This document shows positions 13,067 through 47,441 of a stretch of DNA of 64,000 bases, piece by piece; the stretch's first letter is position 1, and the number at the start of each line of letters is the position of its first letter. The translations under genes were made by a program, and so were the position numbers. Source of the stretch: Cytophagaceae bacterium (GTDB lineage Bacteria > Bacteroidota > Bacteroidia > Cytophagales > Cytophagaceae). The stretch is taken from the NCBI GenBank assembly GCA_025455005.1, contig JALONH010000015.1:1-64000 (forward strand), given 5' to 3'. Below the pieces are notes generated by a model. It did no database searches, was not told the origin of the DNA, and saw only the letters and a list, made by a program, of their open reading frames with translations.

Positions 13067-13153
13067 AGGTAGGACAAGAGTCACACAATTTACACAAGTG
13101 AATTTGGTTTAGTAAATTTTTAAAGAGAAATTTGAGAATAAATAGTATTGATA

Positions 13154-13486
13154 ATGAAACAATCCGAAATAAAATTTCACATCACCTTAGACGATAATAA
13201 TATACCGGAGAAAATTGAGTGGGTAGCGACTGATGGACCATCACCCAAACTACAACCAACAGATGCTATAGCATTATCCTTGTGGGATCATACACAAATG
13301 AGTACGATGCAAATTCAATTATGGACGAAGGAACTCCCAGTTGTAGAAATGAAACGATTTTCAATTGAAGCAATGGGAGGTTTAGCAGATACTATTCAAA
13401 ATGCTACAGGAGATGAGGTTATGGCAGAAGCGATACGTAAGTTATGTAGAGATTTAGTCGTACATGTTAAAGAGACCCATAAATAA
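13154..13486 (+). CDS. gldC: Gliding motility protein GldC
   Basis: A 110-residue soluble protein with the GldC opening (KQSEIKFHITLDDNNIPEKI) and the body WVATDGPSPKLQPTDA. GldC is a conserved Bacteroidota accessory gliding protein whose exact role is unclear. It is found in gliding and many non-gliding species, so it does not prove motility. A TTG lies two codons upstream; the ATG at 13154 matches the usual start. The gene is alone, divergent from the EEP lipoprotein, and followed by a bidirectional terminator. Confidence 0.88.
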   Translation: MKQSEIKFHITLDDNNIPEKIEWVATDGPSPKLQPTDAIALSLWDHTQMSTMQIQLWTKELPVVEMKRFSIEAMGGLADTIQNATGDEVMAEAIRKLCRDLVVHVKETHK

Positions 13487-13525
13487 AAGCTAATCTCCAT
13501 TACAATAACACCAAATTTACTTTAT

Positions 13526-13561
13526 ATCAAAAAAGGCTTCGTAAACGAAGCCTTTTTTGAT
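13526..13561. terminator. Bidirectional intrinsic terminator
   Basis: A hairpin with arms CAAAAAAGGCTTCGT / ACGAAGCCTTTTTTG, with A6 and T6 tracts on the two sides, lies between gldC and the convergent giant gene. Confidence 0.92.
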
Positions 13562-13564
13562 GGA

Positions 13565-16500
13565 TTATTCTTTAACTATTTTCTTATACACAACTCCTTC
13601 CGGTGTATCAATTCGTAAAAGATAAACGCCCGAAGCATATGGGAAGACTAAAGTAAATGGAATAGTTGTATCAGACCATACAAACGTATCGATAGATTCT
13701 CCAGTAGAGGTAAATACTTGAAGATTCGCTGAACTTGCCCATTGTAATTCTATGGTCAATTGAGATACAACAGGAATAGGATATACACTTACACGGTTAG
13801 CTAATTGACTTAATTGTATAGAGGTAGCAATACCAATAGGTAAATTCAACACGTTGGTTTGACCGGCTGGATTAGTTTCTATAACCGATACGGTTCCACC
13901 GGTAGAACCAAAATCTATGGTCACACTCGATGTACCTTGACCAGAAATAATAGTAGCACCCGGAGGTACAGTCCATTGATAGGTCATACCCGTTTGATTG
14001 GGCACATTAAATGTTACGTTTTGTTGATTTGCTGTCACAGAACCTGGACCGCTTATAGAAGAACTAAAACTAGGATTTGCTTGAATACTCATTGTTACAC
14101 TGGTGCTTGCCGGAGAGCCTGTAGCACACGATAAGCTGGATGTCATGGTAACTTGTATCACATCTCCATTTATCAAAGAATTTGTAGAGTACAAAGAGGA
14201 TGTAGCAGAAGGAATAATTGTACTATTTTTTCTCCATACATATGTAGGTGTTGAACCACCACTACTTGGTATAGCCGTAAATACAACATTTTGTCCCAAA
14301 TAGGCCGTAGTTCCCGGTTGGACATCTAACGCAACAGATGCAACAGTAGAGGAAGTGGTTGTAATCGTTATACTGTTAGATTGGTCTGTGGCCGTCGTCT
14401 TACAAGTAGCGGAGGATGTTAACTCTACTTTAAAGGCATCATTCGATACAATAGAAAATGCTTCATATGAATCTGACGTTGCACCCGGAATACTTACATT
14501 ATTTTTAAACCATTGATAAGTTGGAGCTGACCCTCCACCGGTAGTGGAAGAAGAAAATTGAACAGAACCTCCGGAACAAACAGACGTTTGATTAGCTGTT
14601 ATCGTTACCTCAGGAGTATCAATCGATAGTACTACCATAGGTAATTGATTGGATACATCCGTTGTTGCCGTTACACAAGTCAACGAAGTGGTCATAACAA
14701 CAGACACTACATCCCCATCCGCTAACGTAGTGGTAGAATAGGTAGAAGCTGTAGATGCTGACCCAACATTTGATCCGTTTATCCTCCATTGATATTGAGG
14801 TATTCCTCCATTAATAGGAGTAGCAGTAAAGACAACCGTTGCTCCTGCACAATTGGTTAATGCCGGAACACTTATCGTTACACTAGGTGTTTGGGCTGTC
14901 GTAACCGTAATAGTACTCACAGCTGAAGTAGCACTAGAAGAAGTAGTACAAGACGCATTGGATTGCATCACTACGCTAAACTGATCGTTTGTCGCAACAG
15001 AGGATTCCGAGTAAGTGGATAAAGTAGCTCCGGAAATATCGATTCCATTTTTCTTCCATTGATAGGAAGGTGCTGTTCCGGGATGCGTAGGAGTAGCTGT
15101 AAAATTCAACGTCTGATTACTACAAATGGTAGATGATCCGGGCGAAATGACAACAGAAGGTGTAACAAGAGGATTAACGGTTATCGATACACCAGAGGAT
15201 ATAGCGGTTCCCGGTGCTTGAACACAAGGAGCATTCGATGTTAACACTACGGAAAAGACATCCGATGTAACGATCGAGTTGGACGTATAGGAACTGTTGG
15301 TGGCTCCGGCTATAGGATTGCCATTCAACCTCCATTGATATTGTGGTGTAGGACCTCCATTTACCGGTGTGGCCGTAAAAGTAACCGATGTACCTTGGCA
15401 AATGGAACTAGTGGATGGAGTAATGGAAATGGAAGGAACTACTACAGAGGTTACGGTAATAGTCAAAGCTGAAGAAGTAACTGTAGCCGTTGTAGCGCAG
15501 TTTGCGTTCGATGTTAAGCGAACGGAAAAGTTATCGCCCGTTGTATAAGATGCTGTAGAGTACGAAGCATTTGTAGCTCCTGATATAGGATTGTTATTCT
15601 GCAACCATTGATAAGCAGGTGTTGTTCCACCATTAGTAATAGAAGCATTAAACGTGATAGATGTTGCTGAGCACACTGTTGTCTGGGTAGCCGTAGCCGA
15701 TATAGTTGGTGTTACACTGGGAGTAACGGTTATGATCACTGTATTCGATACTTGATTTAAACAAGCACCGGAAGATACCGAACGACGATAATGAGTAGTA
15801 GAGGATAACAAAGCAGGAGCATAGGTAGCAGCAGTCGCTCCACTGATAGTAGACCATACTGTTCCATTTGAAGACGTTTCCCATTGATAAGAGAAAATAG
15901 AATTGCCACCGGTTGGCGCTGTTACACTCGTTAATGGATCCGGTAATTCAGAAGAGCAAATTGATTGATTAACCCCTATTACCCCCGGATCTAAAGTCGG
16001 AGTGACGGTTTTAATCACCACGTTAGAAGCAATATTCGTACAATATTGCGATGAAGTTAGTCGACGGTAATGTGTTGTTACAGTTAGAACACCCGGGGCA
16101 TAGGTAGTAGAAGTTGCACCACTGATAGCACTCCAAGACGATCCATTAAGCGATGATTGCCACTGATAGGCAAAACTACCATTTCCTCCGGATGCTGTTA
16201 CAGTCGATGCGATAGAAGCAGCAGTAGCACCGGCACAAATCGACTCATCCCCACTGATGGTTCCGGCTAAAGTAGTAGGAGTAACATTTATAGTAACAGC
16301 CGCCGATGTGGCCGTACAAGATGCGGATGAAACGACACGACGATACAATACCGATGCTCCGGCGGTACCGGGTGAATACGAGGATTGAGTGGCACCTGAA
16401 ATTACGGCATACGACACACCGGCATTAAAGGATTGTTCCCAAGAATAGGAGAAAGAACCTGAACCGCCACTTGGTGCTATACTTTCTGTAAGGGTTGGGA

Positions 16501-19444
16501 TCGTGGAGCCGGCACATAAATTTCGATCACCAGTAACCGCTCCGGCATTAAGAGCAGGTGTTACCATAATGGTTATAGGTGCGGAAGTAGCCATACATCC
16601 ACCGGATGTAGCCATTCTACGGAATAAAGCAGTTGTCACTAAACCTACCGGAGCATAGGTAGTAGAGGTAACTCCGGATATTGTTGTATAAGAAGTACCA
16701 CCATTGGTAGATTGTTCCCAAGCGTAGGTATAGGATCCAGTTCCACCCGAAGGTAAAGTAGTAGAGGTGATGGTAGTCGGTACTTCTCCTGAACAGATGG
16801 TTTGATTTCCGGCTATACTTCCTGGTGTTAGTACGGGTGTTACCGTTATGGTTAGAACAGCACTTTCTATATTAGAACACGCGCCGGAACTTACCAATCG
16901 TTTAAAATAAGTGGTCGAGGTCAATACTCCGGCATCGTAAGTTGTGCTTGTAGCCCCGCTAATATTTGACCAAGGACCTGTGGAGACCAATGCTTGTTGC
17001 CATTGGTACGTAAAAGTACCTGTTCCGCCTGATGCCGGAGTTGTTTCCGAAAACGGTGTGACATCCGTTCCGGTACAGACTGTTTGATTTGAGGCTATTA
17101 CACCCGGATTAACAGTGGCTGTAACGGTTACCAAGAAGGAAGGGCTTGTGACATTCGAACACGCTCCGGAAGTTACCGATCTTCTAAAATGAGTGGAAGC
17201 AGATAGTGCTCCCGAAGAGTAAGTACTACTGGTAGCGCCACTGATATCGCTGAAGGTAACACCATTAAGTGAGGACTGCCATTGAAAGGAGTAGGTTCCG
17301 TTACCACCACTTGGGGCGCTTAAAGAAGAGAATGCAGTTGGCGTAGATCCTGAACAAATGGTTTGTGCTGATCCTACGGTACCTGCTGTTGTCGTTGGAG
17401 TAATTGTTATAATAACTGCATTCGAGGCTACATTTAAGCATGCACCGGAAGAAGCTAATCGTCGATAATGTGTAGTAACGGTAACAACACCGGGAGCGAA
17501 TGTAGTAGAAGTAGCACCGGATATAGATAACCAAGCGGAACCATCCGGAGACGATTGCCATTGATAAGTTATCCCACCGGAACCGCCGGTTACAGCGCTA
17601 AGTTCTGTTAACGCGGTAGCCGTAGTTCCGAAACATAACGTTTGATTGGATCCAATAGACCCTGAAGTAAGCGTAGGGGTTACGCTTAAGGAAACGGCAC
17701 TTGACGTAACAGAAGTACAAGCATTTGAAACACGAACAGCATACGATCCATTATTGGCCGGTGCGGCGTTGGTAATAGAATACGCAGCGTTTGTAGCACC
17801 GGATATATCCACACCGCCTAAAGTCCATTGGTATCCCGTTGCGTTAGTAGCGCTCACAGAGAATGTTGCTGTTGAGCCTTGGCATACAGTAGATCCAGTA
17901 GGGGGAGTAGTAATGGTAGGAGAAGCACATAATTGATAACGGGAAACCCATCCATCGGTAACCCCTTTTATTGTAAGGTTGGCAGTACCGGCACCCGGAT
18001 CGTAATCACCGGATCCAGCCATTGTTCCTGCAATATGAACTTTTCCGGATGTAGCAAAAGCAATGGTATTTGCCGATTCCGCACTTGTCCCTCCTACTGT
18101 AAATCCAATGGTAGTTGTTCCGGTAGAAGAATATTGAACAACAATACCATCCGAACTACCGGCAGAATTTACAGTAAGGGTATTACCTAAATTTATAGAA
18201 GAGCCCTCCACTTGACCGGTTGCCCAAATCGTATTGGATGCGTCTAAGGTTATTCCAGAGATACGGTCATCACCGGATTGAGCTATTGTTTTATGCCAAG
18301 CATAAGCCCCTGCTGTAGAATAGGAAGCAACAAATCCATCGTTATTACCTAGAGGAGTATAATTGGCCGTAGCGGCTCCCGGATTGAAATCAAAGGCATT
18401 CGCTCCATCGGTTCTAAGATAACCCGACACATACAAATCACCGGATGTTTTGTTGACGGCAATATCCGTACCCCTGTCCTCTAATGCTGTACCTAAGGAA
18501 AAACTCCATTGATGTGCAAAGGAAGAGGAATACTTAGCTACAAATACATCACCCGAACCCGGTGAACCAAATTCGGTTAAGGTATTATCCCCTGCCATAC
18601 CGCTGGCCGGAGAAAAATCGACAGATGTTCCTCTAAAAATACCGGTCACATAGATATTACCGGAGTTATCTGTATCGATTCCGAAACCTTCATCCGAGAA
18701 TGTAGAGCCTATGGAATAAGCAAAATCAGCAATTAAAGTAGCAGTAGAGTATTTAGCTACGAAAACATCTTGAGAGCCGGAAGAAGATAAGTTTATAGCA
18801 GTTCCCTTGCTATTGAAATTAATATTAGAATTTTCTAAAGACCCTGTAATGTAGAAAGAATTCGCATCGGAGGTAATGTCTGACACTTTTCCACAAATAG
18901 CGGCAGGTGAAGAGGATATTCTGAATGAATTAGTTATGCTGGTAACTAAACTATTATCATATTTAATGATTACTATGCCGGGACCACCGATTAAAAAAGT
19001 AGGAGTTGGAGTAGATCCTACTAAATTATTGGTTGATACTAATGTTGGAGTATTGGTTTGTACCGCAATGACTATGTTGCCATTAGGGTCACAGGTAATA
19101 GAAGTGACTTTATCTGAAAGAGTCGAACTGGTGTTTGGACCAATTCGACAAGCCTTTTGAAGTATTCCACTGGAATTATATTTTGCTATAAAACCATCTT
19201 CTCCAAAAGAGGTTAAATTTACTGCAGTTCCTCCTAATGGATTAAAGTCAATATTCGATCCGTTGAAAGAACCTCCTATAAATATATTGTTATTTGCATC
19301 TGTAGCGATGGAATTTACGATTACATTCCCTCCGGATGCGCCCAGGTTATATACTAAATCATTGGTTTGGGAATGAGCTAAAAAAACAAACCCTTGAAGA
19401 AATAGAAAAACGGTTAGTCGAAGTAGTGGTTTCATAGGTTTCAT
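13565..19444 (-). CDS. Giant secreted repeat protein A (SBBP, Ig/PKD-like repeats, T9SS tail)
   Basis: A 1959-residue predicted surface or secreted protein. Order: signal peptide (residues 1-26), about 480 residues of SBBP-type repeats (units like GGSFNGSNIDFNP and DGFIAKYNSSG, probably a beta-propeller), one Ig-like domain, seven repeats of about 92 residues with the cores NQTICSG, YQWQSS, ISGATSTTY and HYRR, and six repeats of about 91 residues with the cores YQWxxN and ISGATNxSY and a Cys pair. A PKD-like domain and a C-terminal type A T9SS sorting domain (about residues 1880-1959, starting VSVYPIPVV and ending YKKIVKE) follow. T9SS removes such tails on export. Repeats of this type occur in Bacteroidota adhesins; the ligand is unknown. 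A second ATG three codons in is an equally possible start. Confidence 0.85.
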   Translation of the reverse strand: MKPMKPLLRLTVFLFLQGFVFLAHSQTNDLVYNLGASGGNVIVNSIATDANNNIFIGGSFNGSNIDFNPLGGTAVNLTSFGEDGFIAKYNSSGILQKACRIGPNTSSTLSDKVTSITCDPNGNIVIAVQTNTPTLVSTNNLVGSTPTPTFLIGGPGIVIIKYDNSLVTSITNSFRISSSPAAICGKVSDITSDANSFYITGSLENSNINFNSKGTAINLSSSGSQDVFVAKYSTATLIADFAYSIGSTFSDEGFGIDTDNSGNIYVTGIFRGTSVDFSPASGMAGDNTLTEFGSPGSGDVFVAKYSSSFAHQWSFSLGTALEDRGTDIAVNKTSGDLYVSGYLRTDGANAFDFNPGAATANYTPLGNNDGFVASYSTAGAYAWHKTIAQSGDDRISGITLDASNTIWATGQVEGSSINLGNTLTVNSAGSSDGIVVQYSSTGTTTIGFTVGGTSAESANTIAFATSGKVHIAGTMAGSGDYDPGAGTANLTIKGVTDGWVSRYQLCASPTITTPPTGSTVCQGSTATFSVSATNATGYQWTLGGVDISGATNAAYSITNAAPANNGSYAVRVSNACTSVTSSAVSLSVTPTLTSGSIGSNQTLCFGTTATALTELSAVTGGSGGITYQWQSSPDGSAWLSISGATSTTFAPGVVTVTTHYRRLASSGACLNVASNAVIITITPTTTAGTVGSAQTICSGSTPTAFSSLSAPSGGNGTYSFQWQSSLNGVTFSDISGATSSTYSSGALSASTHFRRSVTSGACSNVTSPSFLVTVTATVNPGVIASNQTVCTGTDVTPFSETTPASGGTGTFTYQWQQALVSTGPWSNISGATSTTYDAGVLTSTTYFKRLVSSGACSNIESAVLTITVTPVLTPGSIAGNQTICSGEVPTTITSTTLPSGGTGSYTYAWEQSTNGGTSYTTISGVTSTTYAPVGLVTTALFRRMATSGGCMATSAPITIMVTPALNAGAVTGDRNLCAGSTIPTLTESIAPSGGSGSFSYSWEQSFNAGVSYAVISGATQSSYSPGTAGASVLYRRVVSSASCTATSAAVTINVTPTTLAGTISGDESICAGATAASIASTVTASGGNGSFAYQWQSSLNGSSWSAISGATSTTYAPGVLTVTTHYRRLTSSQYCTNIASNVVIKTVTPTLDPGVIGVNQSICSSELPDPLTSVTAPTGGNSIFSYQWETSSNGTVWSTISGATAATYAPALLSSTTHYRRSVSSGACLNQVSNTVIITVTPSVTPTISATATQTTVCSATSITFNASITNGGTTPAYQWLQNNNPISGATNASYSTASYTTGDNFSVRLTSNANCATTATVTSSALTITVTSVVVPSISITPSTSSICQGTSVTFTATPVNGGPTPQYQWRLNGNPIAGATNSSYTSNSIVTSDVFSVVLTSNAPCVQAPGTAISSGVSITVNPLVTPSVVISPGSSTICSNQTLNFTATPTHPGTAPSYQWKKNGIDISGATLSTYSESSVATNDQFSVVMQSNASCTTSSSATSAVSTITVTTAQTPSVTISVPALTNCAGATVVFTATPINGGIPQYQWRINGSNVGSASTASTYSTTTLADGDVVSVVMTTSLTCVTATTDVSNQLPMVVLSIDTPEVTITANQTSVCSGGSVQFSSSTTGGGSAPTYQWFKNNVSIPGATSDSYEAFSIVSNDAFKVELTSSATCKTTATDQSNSITITTTSSTVASVALDVQPGTTAYLGQNVVFTAIPSSGGSTPTYVWRKNSTIIPSATSSLYSTNSLINGDVIQVTMTSSLSCATGSPASTSVTMSIQANPSFSSSISGPGSVTANQQNVTFNVPNQTGMTYQWTVPPGATIISGQGTSSVTIDFGSTGGTVSVIETNPAGQTNVLNLPIGIATSIQLSQLANRVSVYPIPVVSQLTIELQWASSANLQVFTSTGESIDTFVWSDTTIPFTLVFPYASGVYLLRIDTPEGVVYKKIVKE

Positions 19445-19494
19445 AACTATTAATTTTTTAAATTAATATAATAATCCTATGAAACCAAGTTTAC

Positions 19495-22400
19495 CTAAGG
19501 TAAACGTTCCACACGTTCTACCTGCACTTGTTCACCCATACGAATATGGATTAAATAGAGCGCACTAGGAAGTGATTCCATAGGTAATTCTATTTGTTGT
19601 ATATCATTTTGAATAATTTGTTTGGTTGAATATACAATAGTACCTACAGTCGAAATAATGGTTACTTCAACTGTTTTACCCAGTCTATCTTTTATTTCTA
19701 AGGTGGCATTCGAAACCACCGGATTAGGATACACTCGCGCATCGATGGTAGAGGTTAATTGTACACTTGTACAAACACTGGCTGTAACAGTAGCTACATC
19801 GGATAAAGCCGGTGGTGAACATATTCCTGAAACTCTACAAGTATAATCTCCGGCTGTTGCTGCTTGACTATTTGAAATAGTTAAAGATGCTGTTGTGGCT
19901 CCGGAAATGCCACTTCCATTTACCACAGCTACTCCATTTTTAAACCATTGATAGGTTAAATTTTGACCGGATGCCGTCACAGACAAAAAGGTAGGTTGAC
20001 CTATGCATACAGACTGACTAAATGGTTGCACTATTATTTGAGGCGTATTAATGATTAACGCAGCAGCATTTGTATTCAGTACATTTCCACAACTTTCCGT
20101 AACGACACAACGATAACTTCCTTGATTTGCCAAAACAGCGGTAGTCAAGATTAAATTTGCCGATGTCGCTCCACTAATAGCTCCCCCATTAGAAATATTT
20201 ACAAAAGGATTGGAACCGGATTTAAATTGCCATTGAAAAAGCGCTCCACTCCCACTATAGGTAACAGAAAATACAGCCCCTTGATTTAAACAAATATTAG
20301 CATTGATTGGATGTTGTGTAATTGCGCCGGTAGCACCTACAGTCAATACAGCAGTACTAGACGTTGTAGTACCGGTACAGGTTAAAGCCACTTCACAAGT
20401 ATAATTTCCGGCATCACTAAGCGCTATAGACGCAATACTTAATGTATTGGTGGTCGCTCCACTTATGGTTCCGCCATCCGTAAGGGTCACCCCATTTTTC
20501 TTCCAAACATAGATTGCTCCGGTTGGATTCGATATTAATATGGTAAAGCTGCCAGGTTGTCCAACACATGCAGAGAGATTATCCGGTTGATCTGTAATAA
20601 CTGGAGGTGTTGCTAAAGTCAGTACTGCCCCAGTCGAGGTAACAGCCGGACCACAAACACCTGTTACTACACAACTGTAAGTAGCTTCGTCTGTTCCGGA
20701 TAAAGAAGATAATGTAAGGGTAGCTGTCGAACTTCCAGAAACAGACCCTCCATCGCTTAACGTACTGCCATCTTTTAGCCAAGAATAAGTTAACGATGCA
20801 CCATTTGCTGCAACTGAAAAGAGTATAGACGATCCCGGACAGGCACTAGAAGAGGCCGGTTGCGTTGTAATAACTGTTTGAGCATGTGTGGTTAACGTTG
20901 CGGCTGTGGTACTTGTCACACCACAACTACCGGTAATATCGCATACATAAGATCCCGTATTAGCAAGTGTTAGGGAGGTAATTGTTAACGTAGCAGTGGT
21001 GGCACCGGAAACAGACCCGCCATCTACTACTGTTGTCCCATCTTTTTTCCAAACATAACTTAACCCTGTACCAGAGGCAACAACTGTAAGCACAGCATTG
21101 GTTCCTTCACATTGTATTGTTGAAGTAGGTTGTGAAGTAATCGTAATTGAAGTAGTTATGGATAAGATAGCAGCAGAAGAACTTATTGTACCTCCACATG
21201 CACTGGTTACCTCACATACATACGAACCGGCATCCAAAGCAGTGGAGGAACTTACAATTAAGGAAGCAGTAGCAGATCCACTGATAGTCCCACCATCACT
21301 AAGTGCAACCCCATCTTTTTTCCATTGGTACGTAAGGCTTCCGCCTCCTGCTACTACAGTAAAGACAGCATTGGTCCCACTACAAATTGCTTGATTGGAT
21401 GGTTGTGTAAGAATAGAAACACTATTGGAAACGGATAATGCTGCTGCTGAAGAAGACGCAGAAGGCGAACAAGCACCGGAAACGTCACAGGAATAATTTC
21501 CGGCATCTCCGGATACCACACCGGTTATGATTAGCGTTGCGGATGATGTACCGGAAATACTTCCACCATCTGTAAGGTTGACACCATTCTTCTTCCACTG
21601 ATACGAAATGCCCGTGCCGGTTGCCACAACAGTAAAGGATGCAGTAGAGCCACTGCAAACACTTTGATTCGTAGGTTGAGTGGTAATAGAAGGAAGTGTT
21701 TGTATAGTTAAAAGAGCTGCGGCAGAAGTTAATACTCCACTACACGCATTTCCGGTTTCACAAGTATACGTATCGGCATCTGCACTTAGCGCCCCTGTAA
21801 TGGTTAAGGTAGAAGTTGTAGCTCCACTAAATCGTCCACCATTGCTAATATTAACTCCATTTTTCTTCCACTGAAATGTATTACCGGTTCCGGAAACGGT
21901 AACCGTAAAAGCCGCATTGGAACCGGAACAAATAGTAAGATTACTCGGCTGTCCGGTTATCGTTGCCAGCGAACCTACGGATAAAACAGCAGATGTAGAA
22001 GTAACAGGTGGTGTACAAGAGCCGCTAACCACACAATCATAATTACCGGCATCTGCCATGCCGGCAGATGTAATCGATAAGGTAGACGTTGTAACACCAC
22101 TGATAGAACCGCCATTCGAAAGGGCAATACCATTCTTTCTCCATTGATATGTGATGGATGTACCGGTGGCTACTACAGTAAAAGAGACATTCGAAGCAGC
22201 ACAAATGGTTACATCTGTAGGTTGTGTCGTGATTGCAGGTAAGGCATTGACCGTTAATACCCCTACTGATGATGTTAATGAACCGGCACATGCGTTCGAT
22301 ACAATACAACGATAATTACCGGCATCTGCCGACACGATCGATGCTATAGATAAAACAGCCGTAGTAACACCTGAAACGGATCCACCATTAGATAAGTTGA

Positions 22401-25389
22401 CACCATTTTTTTGCCATTGATACGTAATACCACTTCCACTCGTCGTAACCGTAAAGGATGCATTTTGACCGGCACACAAAGTAGCAGATGTGGGTTGTCC
22501 TGTTATGGCTGCTGTTGATCCAACAGTCAATATCGCGACAGCAGAAGTAGCTGCCGGTGTACACGTACCGGATACGATGCATCGGTAATTACCGGCTTCA
22601 GAAACTGAAGCAGCTGTTAAACTAAGCGTTGAAGTGGTTACGCCTGTATAAATGGCATTATTCGATAACGACACTCCATCTTTCTGCCATTGATAAGTTA
22701 AACCGGTACCGGTAGCCACAACTGTGAAACTGGTATTTTGACCGGAACAGATAGAAGCCGAACTTGGTGGTGTCACTATTGTAGGGACGGCATTTACTGT
22801 CAACGTAGCTGTAGCGGAAGTAGCAGTAGGTGCACATGCTCCCGTTACGATACATTGGTATGAAGCAGCATCTGCAGTAGTAATAGAAGTTAAAGTTAAA
22901 GTAGAAGTTGTAGCGCCACTTACATTTCCCCCATTACTTATGTTTACTCCCCCTTTTTGCCATTGATAGGATAAACCGGAACCGCTAGCAGTAACCGAAA
23001 AGGAAACGTTATTGCCACTACAAAGTGTTTGATTGGATGGAGAGGTAGTAATGGTAGGTGCTGCTGTAATGGTAAGAGCCGCTATAGAACTTGTAACAGA
23101 TGGTGTACAGGTACCGGAGACCACACACGTGTAGTTGGCGGCATCACCCGCAACCACCCCTGTAATAGATAAGGATGCTGTCGTAACACCTGAAATAGAA
23201 CCACCATTTGACATGGCCACACCATTTTTTTGCCATTGATAGGTAATTCCGGAACCGGAAGCAACCACCGTAAAGTTTACATTAGCTCCTAAACAAGCCG
23301 CAATGGAAGAAGGGGATGTTGTTATGGATGGAAGACTTGAAATAGAAAGTATCGCCGCATTCGACGTTGCAGACGGTGTACAAGATCCGGTAACGATACA
23401 TGTGAAAGAACCTGCTTCGGCGATTGTGGCTCCGGTAATGTTAAGCGTTGCAGCACTTGTACCCGCATAAACTGCATTATTGGTAATATTCACTCCATTT
23501 CGTTGCCATTGATAGGACAATCCAGTTCCGGAAGCAACTACACCAAAACTTACATTCGCACCACTACATACAGATTGATTGGTTGGATGTGTCGTAATAG
23601 ATGGTGCTGTATTGATGGTAACGGTAGCGGCTGTAGAATTAATTGATCCACAGGCAGACGTAACGACACAACGATAGGACCCATTATTAGCTGAGGATGC
23701 CCCCGCTATCGATAAGGACGCCGTTGTGGCACCTGATACACCTCCCCCATTAGACAAATTTGTTCCATCCTTTTGCCATTGATAACTGATACCGGAACCG
23801 GTGGCCGTGATAGACAAGGCAATGGTGGCTCCCGTACATCCAGTAAAATTAGTTGGTTGCGAAGTGATGCTGGCTCCAGTACATTCAGAATATTTAACGA
23901 TATAACCATCTTCTACACCAAGATTTGTAAGGGATTGAGTGCCTGCACCTGGATCAAAATCTCCACAAGTACTAGAAGCAAAATAACCCGAAAACCATAT
24001 TTCGCCGGATGCTGTGATATCTACTGCAGTACCTACATCATCAGCCGTTCCTCCTAAATTGTATGCCCACGCGTTATCTCCAGTGGATGTATTGTATTTT
24101 GAAATGAAAATATCTTTGGCTCCTACACTACTTAATAATTTGGTCGTGCCACCTCGATTGAATTCTATATTAGATCCATTAAAAATCCCGGTAACATACA
24201 AATTTCCACTACCGTCTCCGGCAACTTTACTAACGGAATCCTTTAATGACCCACCAAGAATTTTTACAAAAATAGGAGCTTGAGTAGATAAGTTGTATTG
24301 GGCAACAAATCCATCCATGTTGTCAACGGTGTTTCGGGTTAGAACGCTTGCTCCACCGCGCATGTCAAAATCTATGGCTAAGTTTGTTCCTTGAACGTAC
24401 CCCCCAACGTTTAACAACCCGGAAGAACCAACATGCAGGGAATTGATATTTTCCTCGTTAACCCCTTCGATAGCTCCATGCCATGTATAAGAACCGGCAG
24501 ATGTATACTTAGCAATGTAGGCATCGCCTGTTCCTTGAGGAACCGATTCTACTGCATTGTTTGTTGCTCCACTTTGATTCATATCTACGGTTCCAAAAAA
24601 TCGGCCGGCGACATAAATATTATCAGAAGCATCAACGGTTAAAGCAGTAGCTTTGTCTGCACCTGCTCCACCTAATAAAAAATTCCATTGTAAAACACCT
24701 GAACCATTAAATTTAACTACAAATCCATCCAATGATCCTGTAACTGTAAGATTAGCTAAGGTAGTTTGAGCCCCACTTGGCATATCTCGTCCATATATAG
24801 TAGAACCGGTATTAACAAAACCGGTAACGTATACATCTCCATTAGAATCTAATTCCATATCAGTAATTTGGTCTTCTCCGACACCTCGATCTCCAAAACC
24901 TCTTACCCAGATCAAACCACCATTGCTATTGTATTTAGCTAAAGCCCCATCTCGCGCAGAAGATGCATTTACATTCAATGCTGAGTTTACATTAAAGAAT
25001 GGTTGGAAATAAGTAGCGGTACTAGCAATATTACATGCCATAAAGACATTACCGGAATTGTCTACTTTTATTTTAATAGCATTTGAAATGGCTGAAGGTG
25101 CACCCGTAGTAATATGATTTAACCAAGCTACTGTGCCGGAAGAATTGATTTTAGCTAAAAAGGTTTGTTCTTTGGTAGAGGAAGAACCTAATCCGGAATT
25201 CGTAGGTGTTGATATCGTATTTCTAGTATTACCTACGATATACGTATTACCGGCAGCATCCGTTTGTATATCAATTACTTTATTGATATGTATGCCCCCG
25301 ATATGTGTTACACTCTGATACGTTTGAGCGTTCCCTGAGCTGATGTACAAAGCAAACAACCCAATCCAAACAAAATTCAATAGCCTCAT
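19495..25389 (-). CDS. Giant secreted repeat protein B (SBBP, 15 Ig-like domains, T9SS tail)
   Basis: A 1964-residue predicted surface or secreted protein, paralogous in design to the gene downstream. It has a signal peptide ending SSGNAQ and about 500 residues of SBBP-type repeats (units such as GNVFMAC, GDVYVTGF and DGYIVKY). Fifteen immunoglobulin-like domains of about 90 residues follow, each with the pattern ITxxP, a Cys, YQWQKNG, SGxTTxxLSI and YxCxV, where the two cysteines would form the Ig disulfide. A C-terminal T9SS sorting domain (VYPNPVV onward, ending VERVERLP) closes the protein. A TTG two codons earlier is rejected in favour of the ATG at 25389. The Ig units are of a different class from those in protein A, although the propeller regions and their junctions (DPGAGT, then LxxxGVxDGxxxxY) match. 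Confidence 0.85.
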   Translation of the reverse strand: MRLLNFVWIGLFALYISSGNAQTYQSVTHIGGIHINKVIDIQTDAAGNTYIVGNTRNTISTPTNSGLGSSSTKEQTFLAKINSSGTVAWLNHITTGAPSAISNAIKIKVDNSGNVFMACNIASTATYFQPFFNVNSALNVNASSARDGALAKYNSNGGLIWVRGFGDRGVGEDQITDMELDSNGDVYVTGFVNTGSTIYGRDMPSGAQTTLANLTVTGSLDGFVVKFNGSGVLQWNFLLGGAGADKATALTVDASDNIYVAGRFFGTVDMNQSGATNNAVESVPQGTGDAYIAKYTSAGSYTWHGAIEGVNEENINSLHVGSSGLLNVGGYVQGTNLAIDFDMRGGASVLTRNTVDNMDGFVAQYNLSTQAPIFVKILGGSLKDSVSKVAGDGSGNLYVTGIFNGSNIEFNRGGTTKLLSSVGAKDIFISKYNTSTGDNAWAYNLGGTADDVGTAVDITASGEIWFSGYFASSTCGDFDPGAGTQSLTNLGVEDGYIVKYSECTGASITSQPTNFTGCTGATIALSITATGSGISYQWQKDGTNLSNGGGVSGATTASLSIAGASSANNGSYRCVVTSACGSINSTAATVTINTAPSITTHPTNQSVCSGANVSFGVVASGTGLSYQWQRNGVNITNNAVYAGTSAATLNITGATIAEAGSFTCIVTGSCTPSATSNAAILSISSLPSITTSPSSIAACLGANVNFTVVASGSGITYQWQKNGVAMSNGGSISGVTTASLSITGVVAGDAANYTCVVSGTCTPSVTSSIAALTITAAPTITTSPSNQTLCSGNNVSFSVTASGSGLSYQWQKGGVNISNGGNVSGATTSTLTLTSITTADAASYQCIVTGACAPTATSATATLTVNAVPTIVTPPSSASICSGQNTSFTVVATGTGLTYQWQKDGVSLSNNAIYTGVTTSTLSLTAASVSEAGNYRCIVSGTCTPAATSAVAILTVGSTAAITGQPTSATLCAGQNASFTVTTSGSGITYQWQKNGVNLSNGGSVSGVTTAVLSIASIVSADAGNYRCIVSNACAGSLTSSVGVLTVNALPAITTQPTDVTICAASNVSFTVVATGTSITYQWRKNGIALSNGGSISGVTTSTLSITSAGMADAGNYDCVVSGSCTPPVTSTSAVLSVGSLATITGQPSNLTICSGSNAAFTVTVSGTGNTFQWKKNGVNISNGGRFSGATTSTLTITGALSADADTYTCETGNACSGVLTSAAALLTIQTLPSITTQPTNQSVCSGSTASFTVVATGTGISYQWKKNGVNLTDGGSISGTSSATLIITGVVSGDAGNYSCDVSGACSPSASSSAAALSVSNSVSILTQPSNQAICSGTNAVFTVVAGGGSLTYQWKKDGVALSDGGTISGSATASLIVSSSTALDAGSYVCEVTSACGGTISSSAAILSITTSITITSQPTSTIQCEGTNAVLTVVASGTGLSYVWKKDGTTVVDGGSVSGATTATLTITSLTLANTGSYVCDITGSCGVTSTTAATLTTHAQTVITTQPASSSACPGSSILFSVAANGASLTYSWLKDGSTLSDGGSVSGSSTATLTLSSLSGTDEATYSCVVTGVCGPAVTSTGAVLTLATPPVITDQPDNLSACVGQPGSFTILISNPTGAIYVWKKNGVTLTDGGTISGATTNTLSIASIALSDAGNYTCEVALTCTGTTTSSTAVLTVGATGAITQHPINANICLNQGAVFSVTYSGSGALFQWQFKSGSNPFVNISNGGAISGATSANLILTTAVLANQGSYRCVVTESCGNVLNTNAAALIINTPQIIVQPFSQSVCIGQPTFLSVTASGQNLTYQWFKNGVAVVNGSGISGATTASLTISNSQAATAGDYTCRVSGICSPPALSDVATVTASVCTSVQLTSTIDARVYPNPVVSNATLEIKDRLGKTVEVTIISTVGTIVYSTKQIIQNDIQQIELPMESLPSALYLIHIRMGEQVQVERVERLP

Positions 25390-25464
25390 GTACAAACAAA
25401 TAGAATATTATACACTAATCTTGTACGCAATTGAATCTTAAAAAGTTACAATTTTTGAATTGAA

Positions 25465-26271
25465 TTACGCTCCTCCGGATAATTCTTTTGCTCTTTTTTC
25501 AGCCTGTTGAAGGGCTTTTTGTATGTTAGGGCCCACTTCAGATTCTATCATGGTATTTAGCGCGGCCTCTGTAGTCCCCCCCTTCGATTTTACCATTGAG
25601 ATGAGCTCGTCAATACTTTGTTTAGAGGAGTTTAATATTTGATAAGCTCCGTGCATAGTTTCTTTCACTAATAACGCTGCTATGTTTTCATCAACTCCCA
25701 TCTTTACTCCCGCTTCTATCATATGTTGAACGATATAATAAAAATAAGCCGGACCACTCCCACTTAATGCCGTAACTGCGTCTAACAACTTTTCATCTTT
25801 TAAAAATATAGATTTACCTGTTGACTCTAACAACATGTCCATGGTACTGATTAAATCGTTTGGTTGACCTTCAGCTATGGTAAAAGCCGATATCCCGTAA
25901 CCGAGTTGTGCCGGTGTATTCGGCATCGCTCGAGCCACTTTTCGATGCAATAACCAATCTTGAATCTGTTGAATGGTTATACCCGCCATGATGGACAAAA
26001 TTACTTGAGACGATTGCAAATATTTTTGTAATGTCTCGGCCATTGCTCTAAAATCTTGTGGTTTTACTGCTAAAACAACAATATCATACGATACAATAGA
26101 AGAATCTATAGTAGAACTGACTTGCGCCACTCCTTCCTGAACCAATTGCAGGCGCTTATCGTCGTGTTTTTCTATTATTAATAGATTTTCAGTACGTACA
26201 ATTTTTCTATTAATAAAGGCTTTGGCATAGGTCAAGCCCATGTTACCTCCGCCTATAATGGCTATTCTCAT
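25465..26271 (-). CDS. proC: Pyrroline-5-carboxylate reductase
   Basis: A 268-residue enzyme for the last step of proline synthesis, NAD(P)H-dependent reduction of pyrroline-5-carboxylate. It has the N-terminal Rossmann motif IIGGGNMG and the C-terminal GSGPAYFYYI and KGGTTEAALN signatures. It is the last gene of the guaA - binding protein - hemL - proC unit, 4 bp after hemL. Only a weak hairpin is visible before the giant gene B. Confidence 0.95.
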   Translation of the reverse strand: MRIAIIGGGNMGLTYAKAFINRKIVRTENLLIIEKHDDKRLQLVQEGVAQVSSTIDSSIVSYDIVVLAVKPQDFRAMAETLQKYLQSSQVILSIMAGITIQQIQDWLLHRKVARAMPNTPAQLGYGISAFTIAEGQPNDLISTMDMLLESTGKSIFLKDEKLLDAVTALSGSGPAYFYYIVQHMIEAGVKMGVDENIAALLVKETMHGAYQILNSSKQSIDELISMVKSKGGTTEAALNTMIESEVGPNIQKALQQAEKRAKELSGGA

Positions 26272-41827: not shown

Positions 41828-44527
41828 ATGAGAATAGGAATAATCTTTGGAGGACCTTCCAGAGAAAGAGAAATATCATTTGCCGGTGGTAGAACCGTAT
41901 ATGATAATTTAAATAAAGATTTATTTGAAGCCATCCCACTATTTGTAGATAGTTTGGGGCAACTCATTTTATTGGATTGGTCATTTGTATACAAAGGCAC
42001 CATCCGAGATTTTTATCCTCCCTTTGACTCTATACCCCATACACCCCATAACTTTCAAGTGTACATTGAATCTTTGGGGAAATTAAATAAAGAAGAGTTA
42101 GATCAAATCATTTCTTCAGTGGGTCGTCGAGTAGAATTCTCCGAACTTCCTGACTTGATTGATATAGCTTTTTTAGCTTTACATGGCCCGTATGGAGAAG
42201 ACGGAGCTATTCAAGGTATTTTAGATTGGTATAACATACCCTATACCGGATCCGGTAAATTAGCCTCGGCTATAGGAATCAACAAAGCGGTTCAAAAAAA
42301 ATTGATGGCACAAGCCGGTTTTCCCGGTCCGGCCTACACTTTCTTATCTAAAGAAACGTGGGAAGCGACAACGAATATAGAGGCTTTGTTTTCCGATGTG
42401 AAACAAAAAGTAGGGTTTCCACTGGTTGTGAAAGCACCCTCTCAAGGTTCATCTATAGGTATAACCGTTTTGACCAAAGAGGATATAACCGATTTTAAAA
42501 AAGCCATACAACGAAGTTTCTTTATACAAGAAATCAGTGCTACGGATTGGAAAGCCTTATCAGAAGAAGAACGAATACGATGGGTAATTACCTTATCTGA
42601 TATACGAGATGGTATTGGGCTTCCTGTTACGGTAGTTGGTGCTCATAAAACACTCTTCCATCCGGAAGATGTTTTGGGTTATTTAAACGAACAATTTTTT
42701 TATCAAGGGGCTATTACCCTAGCCTTAGAAAGTGTAGACACAGAAGAAGAAATTATCATTGAAAGCTTTATACCCGGACAAGAATTTTCTTGTATCGTGT
42801 TACAACAAGAAGATGGTAGCCCGTTAGCCCTTCCTCCTACCGGTATTATTAAAGGTAATCAGTTTTTTGATTACCGATCCAAGTATTTACCGGGAATGTC
42901 TCGGAAAGTCACTCCGATTGATTTACCGGAATCACAAATAGAAGCCATACGATCAGAATGTGAACGGTTGTTTACTGCCTTAAGCTTTAATGTTTATGCC
43001 CGTTTAGATGGGTTCATCACACCGGACGGTGCAATATTTCTGAACGACCCCAATACAACATCGGGTATGATGCCCTCCTCTTTTTTCTTTCATCAAGCAG
43101 CCGAAATTGGACTTAATCCCTCACAATTTTTAACCTATATTATTCGTACCTCACTTAAAGAGCGCGCTAAAGAAGGTAAAAAAAGTGCGAAATTAAAAGA
43201 ATGGATGGAAGCCTTAGACCAACGAATTGCCGCTGATCATAAAGCTGAAAAAAATAAAATACCGGTTGCCGTTATTATGGGGGGCTATTCATCAGAACGC
43301 CATATATCAATGGAGAGCGGACGAAATATTTATGAAAAATTAGCCTCCAGTACGAAATACGAACCACTTCCGGTCTTCTTAACCGGAAGCGATACGGAAC
43401 ATCGGATGTATGTGTTACCCATCAATATTTTATTGAAAGATAATGCCGATGATATAAAAGAAAAGGTAGAACATTTTACCGGATACCACCCGGTAATTGA
43501 AAAAATACAGCAACAAGCAAAAGCCATCACGGATAAATACGTTTATCGAAATATCCGAACACCCAAAGCTATACAATATGAAGAACTCGCACAACTCGTA
43601 CAGGTGGCGTTTATTGCGCTTCACGGTCGACCGGGTGAAGACGGTTCTTTACAACAACAGTTAGAAAAGTATGGAATCCCCTACAATGGCTCCGGAGTTA
43701 AAAGTTCTTCTATTACCATCAACAAGTTTGAAACAAATAAAATTCTACGAGAAAATGGAATTGCAGTAGCGAACCACCGAATGGTGTTTCAAGAGGAATG
43801 GAAACAACAAGGTTCTGCTTTATTAGATGAAATAGAAAGCGGGTTTCAATATCCTATTATTTGTAAGCCTTCGGATGACGGTTGTAGTTCAGCTGTAAAG
43901 AAAATTAAAAATAGAGCCGAGTTACAAGCTTATATTCAATTGATGTTTGGAGAAGCGGATATACGAAATTCAGAAAGTGCGTCCATCTTACAACTTAAAT
44001 ACAACGAAGAGTTTCCACAAAAAAACTACTTCCTATTGGAGGATTTAGTAAGCAAAGGCACAGCACAACATTTTTTGGAAGTTACCGGAGGACTATTAAC
44101 CCGTCACGATGCTAAAGGAAATATTCTTTATGAAATATTCGAACCTTCCGAGGCATTAGCAACCGGAGATGTATTGTCCTTAGAGGAAAAGTTTTTGGCG
44201 GGAGAAGGTCAAAACATTACCCCTGCCCGCTATACGAAAGATAAGAAAGAATACGAAACAGTAGCTATTCACGTTCGTTCTACTCTAGAAAAAGTAGCTC
44301 ATATATTAGACATACAGGGATATGCTCGTATTGATGCCTTTGTTCGTGTATACCAAGACGGACGCGTAGAAACAATCATTATCGAAGTAAATTCACTACC
44401 GGGCATGACACCGGCGACGTGTATCTTCCATCAAACCGCCCTGAATGGATATAAACCGTATGATTTTATTGATGCCATACTAACCTTTGGTATAGAAAGA
44501 GAAAAACTAAAAACACTAACCCATTAA
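41828..44527 (+). CDS. Tandem-fused D-alanine--D-alanine ligase-like protein
   Basis: An 899-residue protein made of two complete Ddl-type ATP-grasp units, about residues 1-470 and 480-899. Each starts with a ligase N-terminal domain (IGIIFGGPSREREISFAGG; VAVIMGGYSSERHISMESG), contains ALHGPYGEDG or ALHGRPGEDG, and ends with a metal-binding segment. The second unit has the canonical IIIEVNSLPGMT. The first has FLNDPNTTSGMM, where the usual Glu is replaced by Asp and the Pro-Gly by Ser-Gly. Normal Ddl is about 300-360 residues. Ddl makes the D-Ala-D-Ala dipeptide of peptidoglycan; whether both halves are active, or one is regulatory or makes another dipeptide, is open. A membrane PASTA gene follows by 4 bp. 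Confidence 0.85.
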   Translation: MRIGIIFGGPSREREISFAGGRTVYDNLNKDLFEAIPLFVDSLGQLILLDWSFVYKGTIRDFYPPFDSIPHTPHNFQVYIESLGKLNKEELDQIISSVGRRVEFSELPDLIDIAFLALHGPYGEDGAIQGILDWYNIPYTGSGKLASAIGINKAVQKKLMAQAGFPGPAYTFLSKETWEATTNIEALFSDVKQKVGFPLVVKAPSQGSSIGITVLTKEDITDFKKAIQRSFFIQEISATDWKALSEEERIRWVITLSDIRDGIGLPVTVVGAHKTLFHPEDVLGYLNEQFFYQGAITLALESVDTEEEIIIESFIPGQEFSCIVLQQEDGSPLALPPTGIIKGNQFFDYRSKYLPGMSRKVTPIDLPESQIEAIRSECERLFTALSFNVYARLDGFITPDGAIFLNDPNTTSGMMPSSFFFHQAAEIGLNPSQFLTYIIRTSLKERAKEGKKSAKLKEWMEALDQRIAADHKAEKNKIPVAVIMGGYSSERHISMESGRNIYEKLASSTKYEPLPVFLTGSDTEHRMYVLPINILLKDNADDIKEKVEHFTGYHPVIEKIQQQAKAITDKYVYRNIRTPKAIQYEELAQLVQVAFIALHGRPGEDGSLQQQLEKYGIPYNGSGVKSSSITINKFETNKILRENGIAVANHRMVFQEEWKQQGSALLDEIESGFQYPIICKPSDDGCSSAVKKIKNRAELQAYIQLMFGEADIRNSESASILQLKYNEEFPQKNYFLLEDLVSKGTAQHFLEVTGGLLTRHDAKGNILYEIFEPSEALATGDVLSLEEKFLAGEGQNITPARYTKDKKEYETVAIHVRSTLEKVAHILDIQGYARIDAFVRVYQDGRVETIIIEVNSLPGMTPATCIFHQTALNGYKPYDFIDAILTFGIEREKLKTLTH

Positions 44528-45299: not shown

Positions 45300-47441
45300 A
45301 TGCGCTTCCTAGTACTTTTCTCTCTCATCCATTTCATTACCCCATGGGCTTGGTCGCAAGTAGATATAGTACCTTGGCAGCAAGCACCCTCTTCTTATGC
45401 CTTATTTGGCCCTACCCTTATACAAGACGACACCCTACGTCTCCCACTTTTTGAAGACTTTTCCGGCGACTATAGTACTTTATGTGATATTCGAGAAGTA
45501 ATGATAGGTGCAGACGAAGGGTATGAAATCGAATACTGTCAATTTCACGGATTAAAGAACGGTGATTCCGTTCGTGTTCTCAACTCTAAAGGAAATCCAT
45601 TAGTTGGTTTTAATACGGCAGCATTTGAAGGTATCCGATATATACAAGTAATCAATAAATATACCATTCGATTGTTTTTAGATGCAGCCTTAACCCAAGT
45701 GGCTACGACACAAACTATACCGGTCAACATGTGTACACTGCGAAAATTGCCTTACAGTGGAACAGTCAGTTACCCGGATACGCTTCGATTTGTGTACAAT
45801 AGTGGTGGTGTCTTTGTAAACGAAACGATGTCAAATTTCCCTGTTAGTATTGGAGTAGCCACTTTTGACGGTTTAAATGAATTAGGTGTACCGTATAGTA
45901 ATCAAACATTTTTAAATGGATATGCAGATAATTTAACTTCTTTGCCTATCAATCTTGAAACTATTCAACCGTCAGATTCGCTTTATTTTTCTTTTTATTG
46001 GCAAAGTTTCAGCTTTGGTGAGTCCCCGGAGGCAACCGACTCCTTGATTGTAGAATTTAAAGATAACACGAATAAATGGAACCGAGTGGTTCGGATCAGC
46101 GGGGCTATAGCTACGGCCGATTCTTTTTACTTAGCTGCTGTAGCTATAAAAGACATTCGTTATTTACATAAAGGATTTCAGTTTCGTTTTCGTAACTATG
46201 GACGATTATCCGGTCGGTTTGACATATGGAATGTAGATTATATCGTATTAGATACCGGAAGGACTTTAACAACATTAGCCACTCGAGATGTTTCAATTGT
46301 TCAACATTCCCGCTCCTTTTTAAAAGCCGGTACGGCGATGCCACATCTACATTTCAGAGCATTAAATTCAACCCAACAAGCCAATCTGGTTCAAGATAAT
46401 TATTCCTTCACTGTTCGGAATTTACAAACCTTAATACCTCGGCGAAACGAATTAAAAATTAGAACCAATACCAACGTATTTATTGACACCATTACGTCCA
46501 TAGCAGGAGATATAGATGCATCGAGGTATACTATTCCCCTAATTACAACTAAAAAATTAGCCGATACTTTACTGGCGAATATCTCTCCAACATTACCTTT
46601 TGTTGTGAAAATGGATTACTTTTTAGGAAATGGTGATGGGGCCTTTGTTAGTCCTTTTGGGAGAATTGATTATACCTGTAACAATTTCAGTGTGGCAGAA
46701 ACGTATTTCACGGATTATTACGCCTATGACGATGGAACCGCGGAGATGAGTTTTCGAAGTAATGAAAATGGGATACGATTGGGAAATGAATTTACCATAA
46801 TGGCCACTGATACGTTATCTCATGTTGATATAGCCTTTAACCGAAATAATGGTCCCGATTTAACCGGAATACGATTATTTATTACCATTTGGAATGCGGC
46901 CAATATGGAAGTCTATTCTGAACTACTTCCAATTCAATATAGCAGCACGTTGAACGGGTTTACACGTTATAAATTAAGCGCTATCGTACGTTTAACACCG
47001 GGTGTATATACTATAGGTTATCGGCAGAATACAAACGAAGCTGTCCATATAGGATATGACCGAAACAACAATTTTAGTAACAAAATAAAAATTAATAGTA
47101 ATGGAACTTGGTTTTATTATTCCCCGCCGGGCGATTTAACCGGCGCTTTGATGATCCGCCCTATATTTATTAAAAATACCCAATTGGTAACCAATACTCC
47201 ACAACCAAGTAAAGAAATGCGCAGTATGGTATACCCTAACCCTATCTATTCCGGTGGACGATTGTATATCAGTGGTGCTGTAAATGAAGCTCGTATAGTT
47301 GGACTAGATGGTAGGGAAATTTTATTCGTCCCAATAATAGATGGATTCATCGAAATACCCACTTTTTTAGACGGAATGTATTTGATTCAACTTATCGGTG
47401 AGAGTCAACTTGAAACACACAAACTTTTGATTTTACATTAA
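45300..47441 (+). CDS. T9SS type A sorting-domain protein of unknown function
   Basis: A 713-residue exported protein with a signal peptide ending WAWSQ and a C-terminal T9SS sorting domain (about residues 640-713, MVYPNPIYSGGRLYI to the end). The long middle has no recognised catalytic motif. It contains beta-rich segments (YFSFYWQSFSFGESPEATDS; FQFRFRNYGRLSGRFDIWNV) resembling jelly-roll or concanavalin-like units that Bacteroidota secreted proteins often carry. The start is 6 bp after the PASTA gene, linking it to the same transcript. Function unknown; probably cell-surface. Confidence 0.8.
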   Translation: MRFLVLFSLIHFITPWAWSQVDIVPWQQAPSSYALFGPTLIQDDTLRLPLFEDFSGDYSTLCDIREVMIGADEGYEIEYCQFHGLKNGDSVRVLNSKGNPLVGFNTAAFEGIRYIQVINKYTIRLFLDAALTQVATTQTIPVNMCTLRKLPYSGTVSYPDTLRFVYNSGGVFVNETMSNFPVSIGVATFDGLNELGVPYSNQTFLNGYADNLTSLPINLETIQPSDSLYFSFYWQSFSFGESPEATDSLIVEFKDNTNKWNRVVRISGAIATADSFYLAAVAIKDIRYLHKGFQFRFRNYGRLSGRFDIWNVDYIVLDTGRTLTTLATRDVSIVQHSRSFLKAGTAMPHLHFRALNSTQQANLVQDNYSFTVRNLQTLIPRRNELKIRTNTNVFIDTITSIAGDIDASRYTIPLITTKKLADTLLANISPTLPFVVKMDYFLGNGDGAFVSPFGRIDYTCNNFSVAETYFTDYYAYDDGTAEMSFRSNENGIRLGNEFTIMATDTLSHVDIAFNRNNGPDLTGIRLFITIWNAANMEVYSELLPIQYSSTLNGFTRYKLSAIVRLTPGVYTIGYRQNTNEAVHIGYDRNNNFSNKIKINSNGTWFYYSPPGDLTGALMIRPIFIKNTQLVTNTPQPSKEMRSMVYPNPIYSGGRLYISGAVNEARIVGLDGREILFVPIIDGFIEIPTFLDGMYLIQLIGESQLETHKLLILH

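Follow-up and report, generated by a model that had tools for sequence, protein, structure and literature searches.

The window considered here, a stretch of 64,000 nucleotides from a Cytophagaceae bacterium (contig JALONH010000015.1), harbours two large genes, A and B, which lie on the same (-) strand and are separated by 50 bases (Table 1). The mechanical open reading frame of B begins at a TTG codon at position 25395, and its ATG start yields the product of 1964 aa. An earlier sequence-only reading had described both proteins as close to 1960 residues long, and its sizes and coordinates proved correct. The SBBP-type repeats it placed at both N-termini were likewise recovered, as a scan of the genome scored PF06739 above its cut-off in A as well as in B; scored over the whole protein, B reaches 34 bits and A 16.7 bits, the latter under the cut-off of 20.5. 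The stalks were segmented by their recurring cysteine, and their domains were assigned with Pfam and NCBIfam profiles. In B, this segmentation yields the 15 Ig domains that had been anticipated, and the Ig_3 profile scores 465 bits with 14 stretches above threshold. The stalk of A likewise amounts to 15 domains: the seven C1 repeats, six C2 repeats and PKD-like domain that had been listed are all present, yet an additional B-type Ig domain between head and array had been missed. The nearest solved sequence relatives of the B-type domains are Ig-domain proteins of phage tails (PDB 9ncf and 9c2d; E 8e-56 and 2e-43), which differ from A and B in both their carrier and their secretion route.

Table 1. 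Features of the A/B locus, in coordinates of the window
Feature	Position	Strand	Basis and remarks
gldC, convergent conserved neighbour of A	13148..13486	+	TIGR03515, 153 bits (cut-off 102)
17-pair hairpin, probable shared terminator of A and convergent gldC	13525..13562	.	pattern match only
Gene A	13565..19444	-	1959 aa; propeller head, B-type Ig 1, C1 x7, C2 x6, PKD-like, T9SS type A tail
Sorting domain of A (T9SS type A)	13568..13786	-	TIGR04183
A PKD-like domain PKD_6, PF19408 (aa 1794-1868)	13841..14065	-	66.8 bits
A C2 array: six ~91-aa repeats, the first Cys missing from the sixth (aa 1246-1788)	14081..15709	-	segmentation and class HMMs
A C1 array: seven Ig_7-type repeats, each 93-95 aa long (aa 592-1245)	15710..17671	-	segmentation and class HMMs
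A domain 1, B-type Ig (aa 509-591), kept in all A orthologues	17672..17920	-	B-type HMM 62.6 bits vs 14 (C1) and 40 (C2)
A putative signal peptide and predicted seven-bladed SBBP propeller head (aa 1-506)	17927..19444	-	AF2, CylK match, hmmsearch E 9e-19
Gene B	19495..25389	-	1964 aa from ATG; propeller head, 15 B-type Ig domains, T9SS type A tail
Sorting domain of B (T9SS type A)	19510..19734	-	TIGR04183
B array, 15 Ig domains, period ~91 aa	19795..23874	-	segmentation
B putative signal peptide and predicted seven-bladed SBBP propeller head (aa 1-503)	23881..25389	-	AF2, CylK match, hmmsearch E 7e-34
proC, encoding pyrroline-5-carboxylate reductase; conserved upstream of B	25465..26271	-	synteny

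The surroundings of the pair are conserved beyond the window. The gene order guaA, TPR, aminotransferase, proC, B and A, followed by gldC, exo/endonuclease, ribF, truB and uppP, is common to the window and to Cytophaga hutchinsonii, which carries an inserted TetR/RND efflux operon between A and gldC. All three Cytophaga species searched possess the proC-B-A block, namely C. hutchinsonii, represented by a genome which we take to be that of ATCC 33406, Cytophaga aurantiaca DSM 3654 and an uncultured Cytophaga (a MAG); no others emerged from a search across the whole genus. In a third genus of the family, here designated g4, upstream or downstream halves of the block are found on broken contigs, and on a contig of one g4 genome (G010) A is followed by gldC, exo/endonuclease, ribF and truB with a few other genes interspersed.

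The heads of A and B are related in sequence (blastp 128 bits, E 3e-36, about 28-31% identity). AF2 models based on orthologue alignments predict a seven-bladed propeller for each of them, with pLDDT 79.8 and pTM 0.84 for A, and pLDDT 81.3 and pTM 0.85 for B. By sequence as well as by structure, the CylK propeller is the nearest solved counterpart of both heads (E 9e-19 and Z 42.9 for A, E 7e-34 and Z 42.1 for B), whereas unrelated propellers attain Z values of only up to ~33. At Z 42-43 the predicted heads thus match a closed propeller, and the correspondence to CylK (PDB 7ron, 7fh6) extends over 380-390 residues at 2.2-2.5 Å with 24-25% identity. The DPGAGT/DGxxxxY region, which the sequence-only reading had taken for the junction between head and Ig part, indeed occurs in both proteins but forms the last propeller blade in the AF2 models rather than a linker. 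Moreover, where CylK has acidic residues at its blade junctions, the aligned positions of the B-head profile are acidic and conserved as well. Every blade junction of the CylK propeller binds Ca2+ (PMC8916777), and by analogy the heads of A and B may bind Ca2+ at the corresponding sites. On the other hand, CylK is a cyanobacterial alkylating enzyme, which carries an N-terminal Ca2+-binding roll and is devoid of an Ig stalk and a T9SS tail. Between the window and Cytophaga, the B heads are 37-42% identical as compared to 51-53% for the B Ig domains; the head is therefore no better conserved than the stalk, and there is no sign of a binding site under strong constraint.

Two trees were computed to trace the origin of the pair, one from 11 A/B head sequences of the window genus, Cytophaga and g4, and one from 49 SBBP heads. 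The former separates an A clade from a B clade, each at 100/100, and both clades repeat the order g4, window, Cytophaga. Since the species order recurs in either clade and the locus is shared by three genera, the duplication is, judged from these comparisons, old and predates the split of the three genera. In the larger tree the A and B heads fall into a single group (SH-aLRT 97), which also encloses one long-branch row from Ignavibacteria, and constraining the 11 A/B rows together results in a higher likelihood (p-AU 0.93). Full-length heads are confined to the three genera among the 19 genomes from 10 genera of the family that were searched. A contig search with the B head alone found nothing, while an alignment query did find homologues. 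Outside the family, a 956-aa protein of Nisaea nitritireducens (locus L079, 10004-12874, +) combines an SBBP propeller with subsequent RTX-like repeats, and hence the same type of head with another secretion carrier. Contamination was rejected as an explanation for this match, as its neighbours look genuinely alphaproteobacterial and the SBBP head is fused to the RTX-like repeats, and the sequence was kept as an outgroup. Taken together, the origin by duplication put forward by the sequence-only reading is borne out, in that the heads share sequence as well as predicted fold and group among 49; both are predicted CylK-type propellers rather than unrelated N-terminal domains, and the nearest relatives of both genes share one locus instead of lying in different ones. 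These comparisons support the view that B and A are ancient tandem paralogues derived from one duplication.

In contrast to their common origin, the two stalks appear to have had different histories. The array of B comprises 15 domains in all four complete cases, which represent four species, at a protein length of 1955-1964 aa. Within Cytophaga, each of the 15 domains finds its best match at the same position in every comparison, and between the window and Cytophaga identity amounts to 51-53% on the diagonal versus about 43% off it. This suggests that the B stalk behaves as a fixed-length spacer, whose length and domain order would have been kept since before the Cytophaga split in the four species covered. 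For the window and Cytophaga, homogenisation of B by concerted evolution was dismissed, as the domains match by position and the internal DNA identity of complete B arrays does not exceed 65%. A caution to this reading comes from the B orthologue of g4 (L071, 7246-10902), whose array is split by broken contigs: there, domains two apart are up to 90% identical in DNA and form a repeat unit of two domains, which indicates recent duplication.

The A stalks of five species, on the contrary, comprise 15, 15, 21, 19 and 7 domains in proteins of 1959, 1977, 2452, 2257 and 1187 aa, respectively, so the similar reach that the sequence-only reading had attributed to the pair is not supported as a general trait, given the range of 1187-2452 aa for A versus 1955-1964 aa for B. 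The first A domain is of B-type in all five species, and so are the last two in Cytophaga and G010. In between, the window and C. hutchinsonii feature C1 and C2 repeats, G010 possesses a further class, and C. aurantiaca and the Cytophaga MAG contain mainly C2 repeats along with three repeats of 74-79 residues belonging to another class. The DNA identity of neighbouring A repeats reaches a maximum of 87% in C. hutchinsonii and 80-81% in C. aurantiaca, and is at most 67% in the window. Since B-type domains persist at the ends of A while the classes in the middle have switched, it looks as if the A stalk began B-like and its middle was replaced and amplified more than once. These repeat comparisons uphold the earlier proposal of stalk replacement after duplication, and an A array composed wholly of unrelated domains was rejected on account of its B-type ends. 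It is very improbable that A and B recruited their SBBP heads independently and became neighbours by chance: although such propellers are common, also on other carriers such as the RTX-repeat protein of Nisaea, and the one Ignavibacteria row stands beside the B heads with weak support, the locus and gene order are the same in three genera, the tree improves when A and B are held together, and the A array has retained B-type Ig domains at either end.

The cysteines of the Ig domains deviate from the classical pairing that had been ascribed to B. Each B domain contains three cysteines, and the usual B-strand position is mostly occupied by V, I or A. The pair kept in all species consists of an early cysteine and a cysteine just after the F strand, and is shared by the A domains. 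The third cysteine is present in 15 of 15 domains here, in 14 of 15 in two Cytophaga species, in 8 of 15 in C. hutchinsonii and in none in two g4 genomes. This extra F-strand cysteine of the B array (19795-23874, -) has no obvious partner, and its presence varies by species.

Both proteins terminate in a T9SS type A sorting domain (TIGR04183, 29.6 bits for A and 29.0 bits for B at a cut-off of 23), while TIGR04131, the profile of the type B tail, gave no match in either at E 0.01. The similarity between the two tails is no more than generic (33% over 42 aa, E 1e-4), and more than 70 TIGR04183 tails exceed the cut-off in this genome; hence, the "same tail" of the sequence-only reading stands as the same sorting class, but not as a specific resemblance. 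The genome also encodes SprA (TIGR04189, 2584 bits). Read from sequence and models, the N-termini of A and B show a hydrophobic helix followed by S-QT and A-QT, respectively. SprB of Flavobacterium johnsoniae, which is repetitive, resembles A and B in being a very large surface protein exported by the T9SS, but differs from them by its type B tail and cognate SprF shuttle; no PorP/SprF shuttle gene adjoins the pair, whose neighbours are proC and gldC. An N-terminal glutamine of the mature protein is the rule for T9SS cargo according to PMC5837995. In F. johnsoniae, type A tails confer static anchoring or release, but not helical movement (PMC12618676).

A connection to experimental work is provided by C. 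hutchinsonii, in which the GH9 gene at 1107802-1112160 is the 22nd open reading frame after A and is presumably CHU_0961. The latter locus tag is named in PMC6247017. If this gene count is right, A of C. hutchinsonii would correspond to CHU_0939 and B to CHU_0938, an assignment supported by PMC7906972, whose account agrees in giving CHU_0938 and CHU_0939 a T9SS tail, Ig-like domains and a place in one common gene cluster. Both are present on the wild-type surface and missing or reduced in sprA and sprT mutants, and their double deletion lowers the number of transformants on plates poor in Ca2+ and Mg2+, while its growth curves exhibit no significant lag (unpublished data in PMC7906972; all other results ibid.). 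The two pairs share locus, order, head and tail class, and the B orthologue also contains 15 Ig domains. They differ in that the stalk of CHU_0939 features eight C1 repeats, four C2 repeats and, at its C-terminal end, a pair of B-type domains, where A of the window has seven, six and a PKD-like domain, and in the efflux operon between A and gldC.

The reading we favour, at a probability of roughly 0.6, regards A and B as statically anchored adhesins or receptors that expose a Ca2+-stabilised propeller tip on an Ig spacer; both the adhesive or receptor function and the orientation of the fibre are inferred. The tail would send the protein through the SprA and PorV route, and the C-terminus would be fixed statically at the outer membrane. 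From there, the 15-domain array would raise the propeller tens of nanometres above the surface; as an Ig domain is about 4 nm long, our own estimate for fifteen of them is a reach of roughly 60 nm. An Ig array rooted at the membrane by the C-terminus would put the propeller at the tip, so that the propeller is likelier to be the binding part than the stalk, to which the sequence-only reading had tied the different binding of the two fibres. There, made rigid through Ca2+ at its blade junctions as in CylK, it would bind the ligand, while the middle of the A stalk would have been repeatedly replaced and re-amplified at constant length and order of B. Against this reading stand the release that type A tails can also cause, the absence of a significant growth lag in the C. 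hutchinsonii double deletion (unpublished data in PMC7906972) and the head conservation noted above.

Alternatively, the pair might serve calcium acquisition by collecting Ca2+ at the surface and handing it to an outer-membrane uptake route, an idea already put forward for the C. hutchinsonii proteins. This notion draws on the reduction of CHU_0938 and CHU_0939 in T9SS mutants short of Ca2+, on the far fewer transformants of the double deletion on Ca2+/Mg2+-poor plates (both PMC7906972), and on the several Ca2+ bound by CylK-type propellers. We nevertheless regard it as unlikely, given that the deletion mutants grow without significant lag in poor medium (unpublished data in PMC7906972), that structural Ca2+ of propellers normally assists folding and not transport, and that the Ca2+ argument of PMC7906972 rests on Ig domains in general. 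No likelier is a role as T9SS-delivered gliding adhesins of the Cytophaga lineage, which can dispense with its SprB homologue: SprB of C. hutchinsonii (CHU_2225) is reported not to be needed for gliding (data not shown therein; PMC8564354), loss of the type A shuttle PorV impairs gliding of this species (PMC8564354), and gldC is a conserved convergent neighbour of A. Against it speak the behaviour of the F. johnsoniae type A tails, which gave no helical movement (PMC12618676), the absence of an SprF-like gene adjoining the pair, and the position of gldC on the opposite strand behind a probable terminator. A related and improbable extension would be a two-component contact system of the Cytophaga lineage, with B as a ruler fixed at 15 domains and A as its rapidly remodelled partner of adjustable reach, both being among the type A adhesins for SprB-free gliding or cellulose contact of C. 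hutchinsonii. Quite improbable, finally, is a catalytic propeller that the stalk merely displays: several other propellers are enzymes, and so is CylK, the nearest solved relative, with its active site on the top face of the propeller, but CylK catalysis also needs the N-terminal Ca2+-binding domain with Arg105, which is absent from the heads, as the alignment spans CylK residues 249-653 only and the heads start at the propeller.

For the favoured anchored adhesins or receptors, the parts and the general layout are already known; what is unusual is the frozen versus the remodelled stalk within a conserved pair, and the CylK-type head. The locus thereby offers a clean natural comparison, with the same head and sorting route but one fixed and one rebuilt stalk, and this contrast between paralogues allows asking what sets stalk length in T9SS surface proteins. 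Moreover, two uncharacterised and already deleted C. hutchinsonii proteins are tied to a probable Ca2+-stabilised propeller head, which constitutes an alternative reason, as opposed to the Ig domains, for the suspected link to Ca2+.

Elsewhere in the window, a 713-aa protein (45300-47441, +) carries a further T9SS type A tail (24.3 bits), and an 899-aa open reading frame (41828-44527, +) contains two D-alanine--D-alanine ligase matches (residues ~2-231 and ~477-710), apparently constituting a double or fused Ddl.
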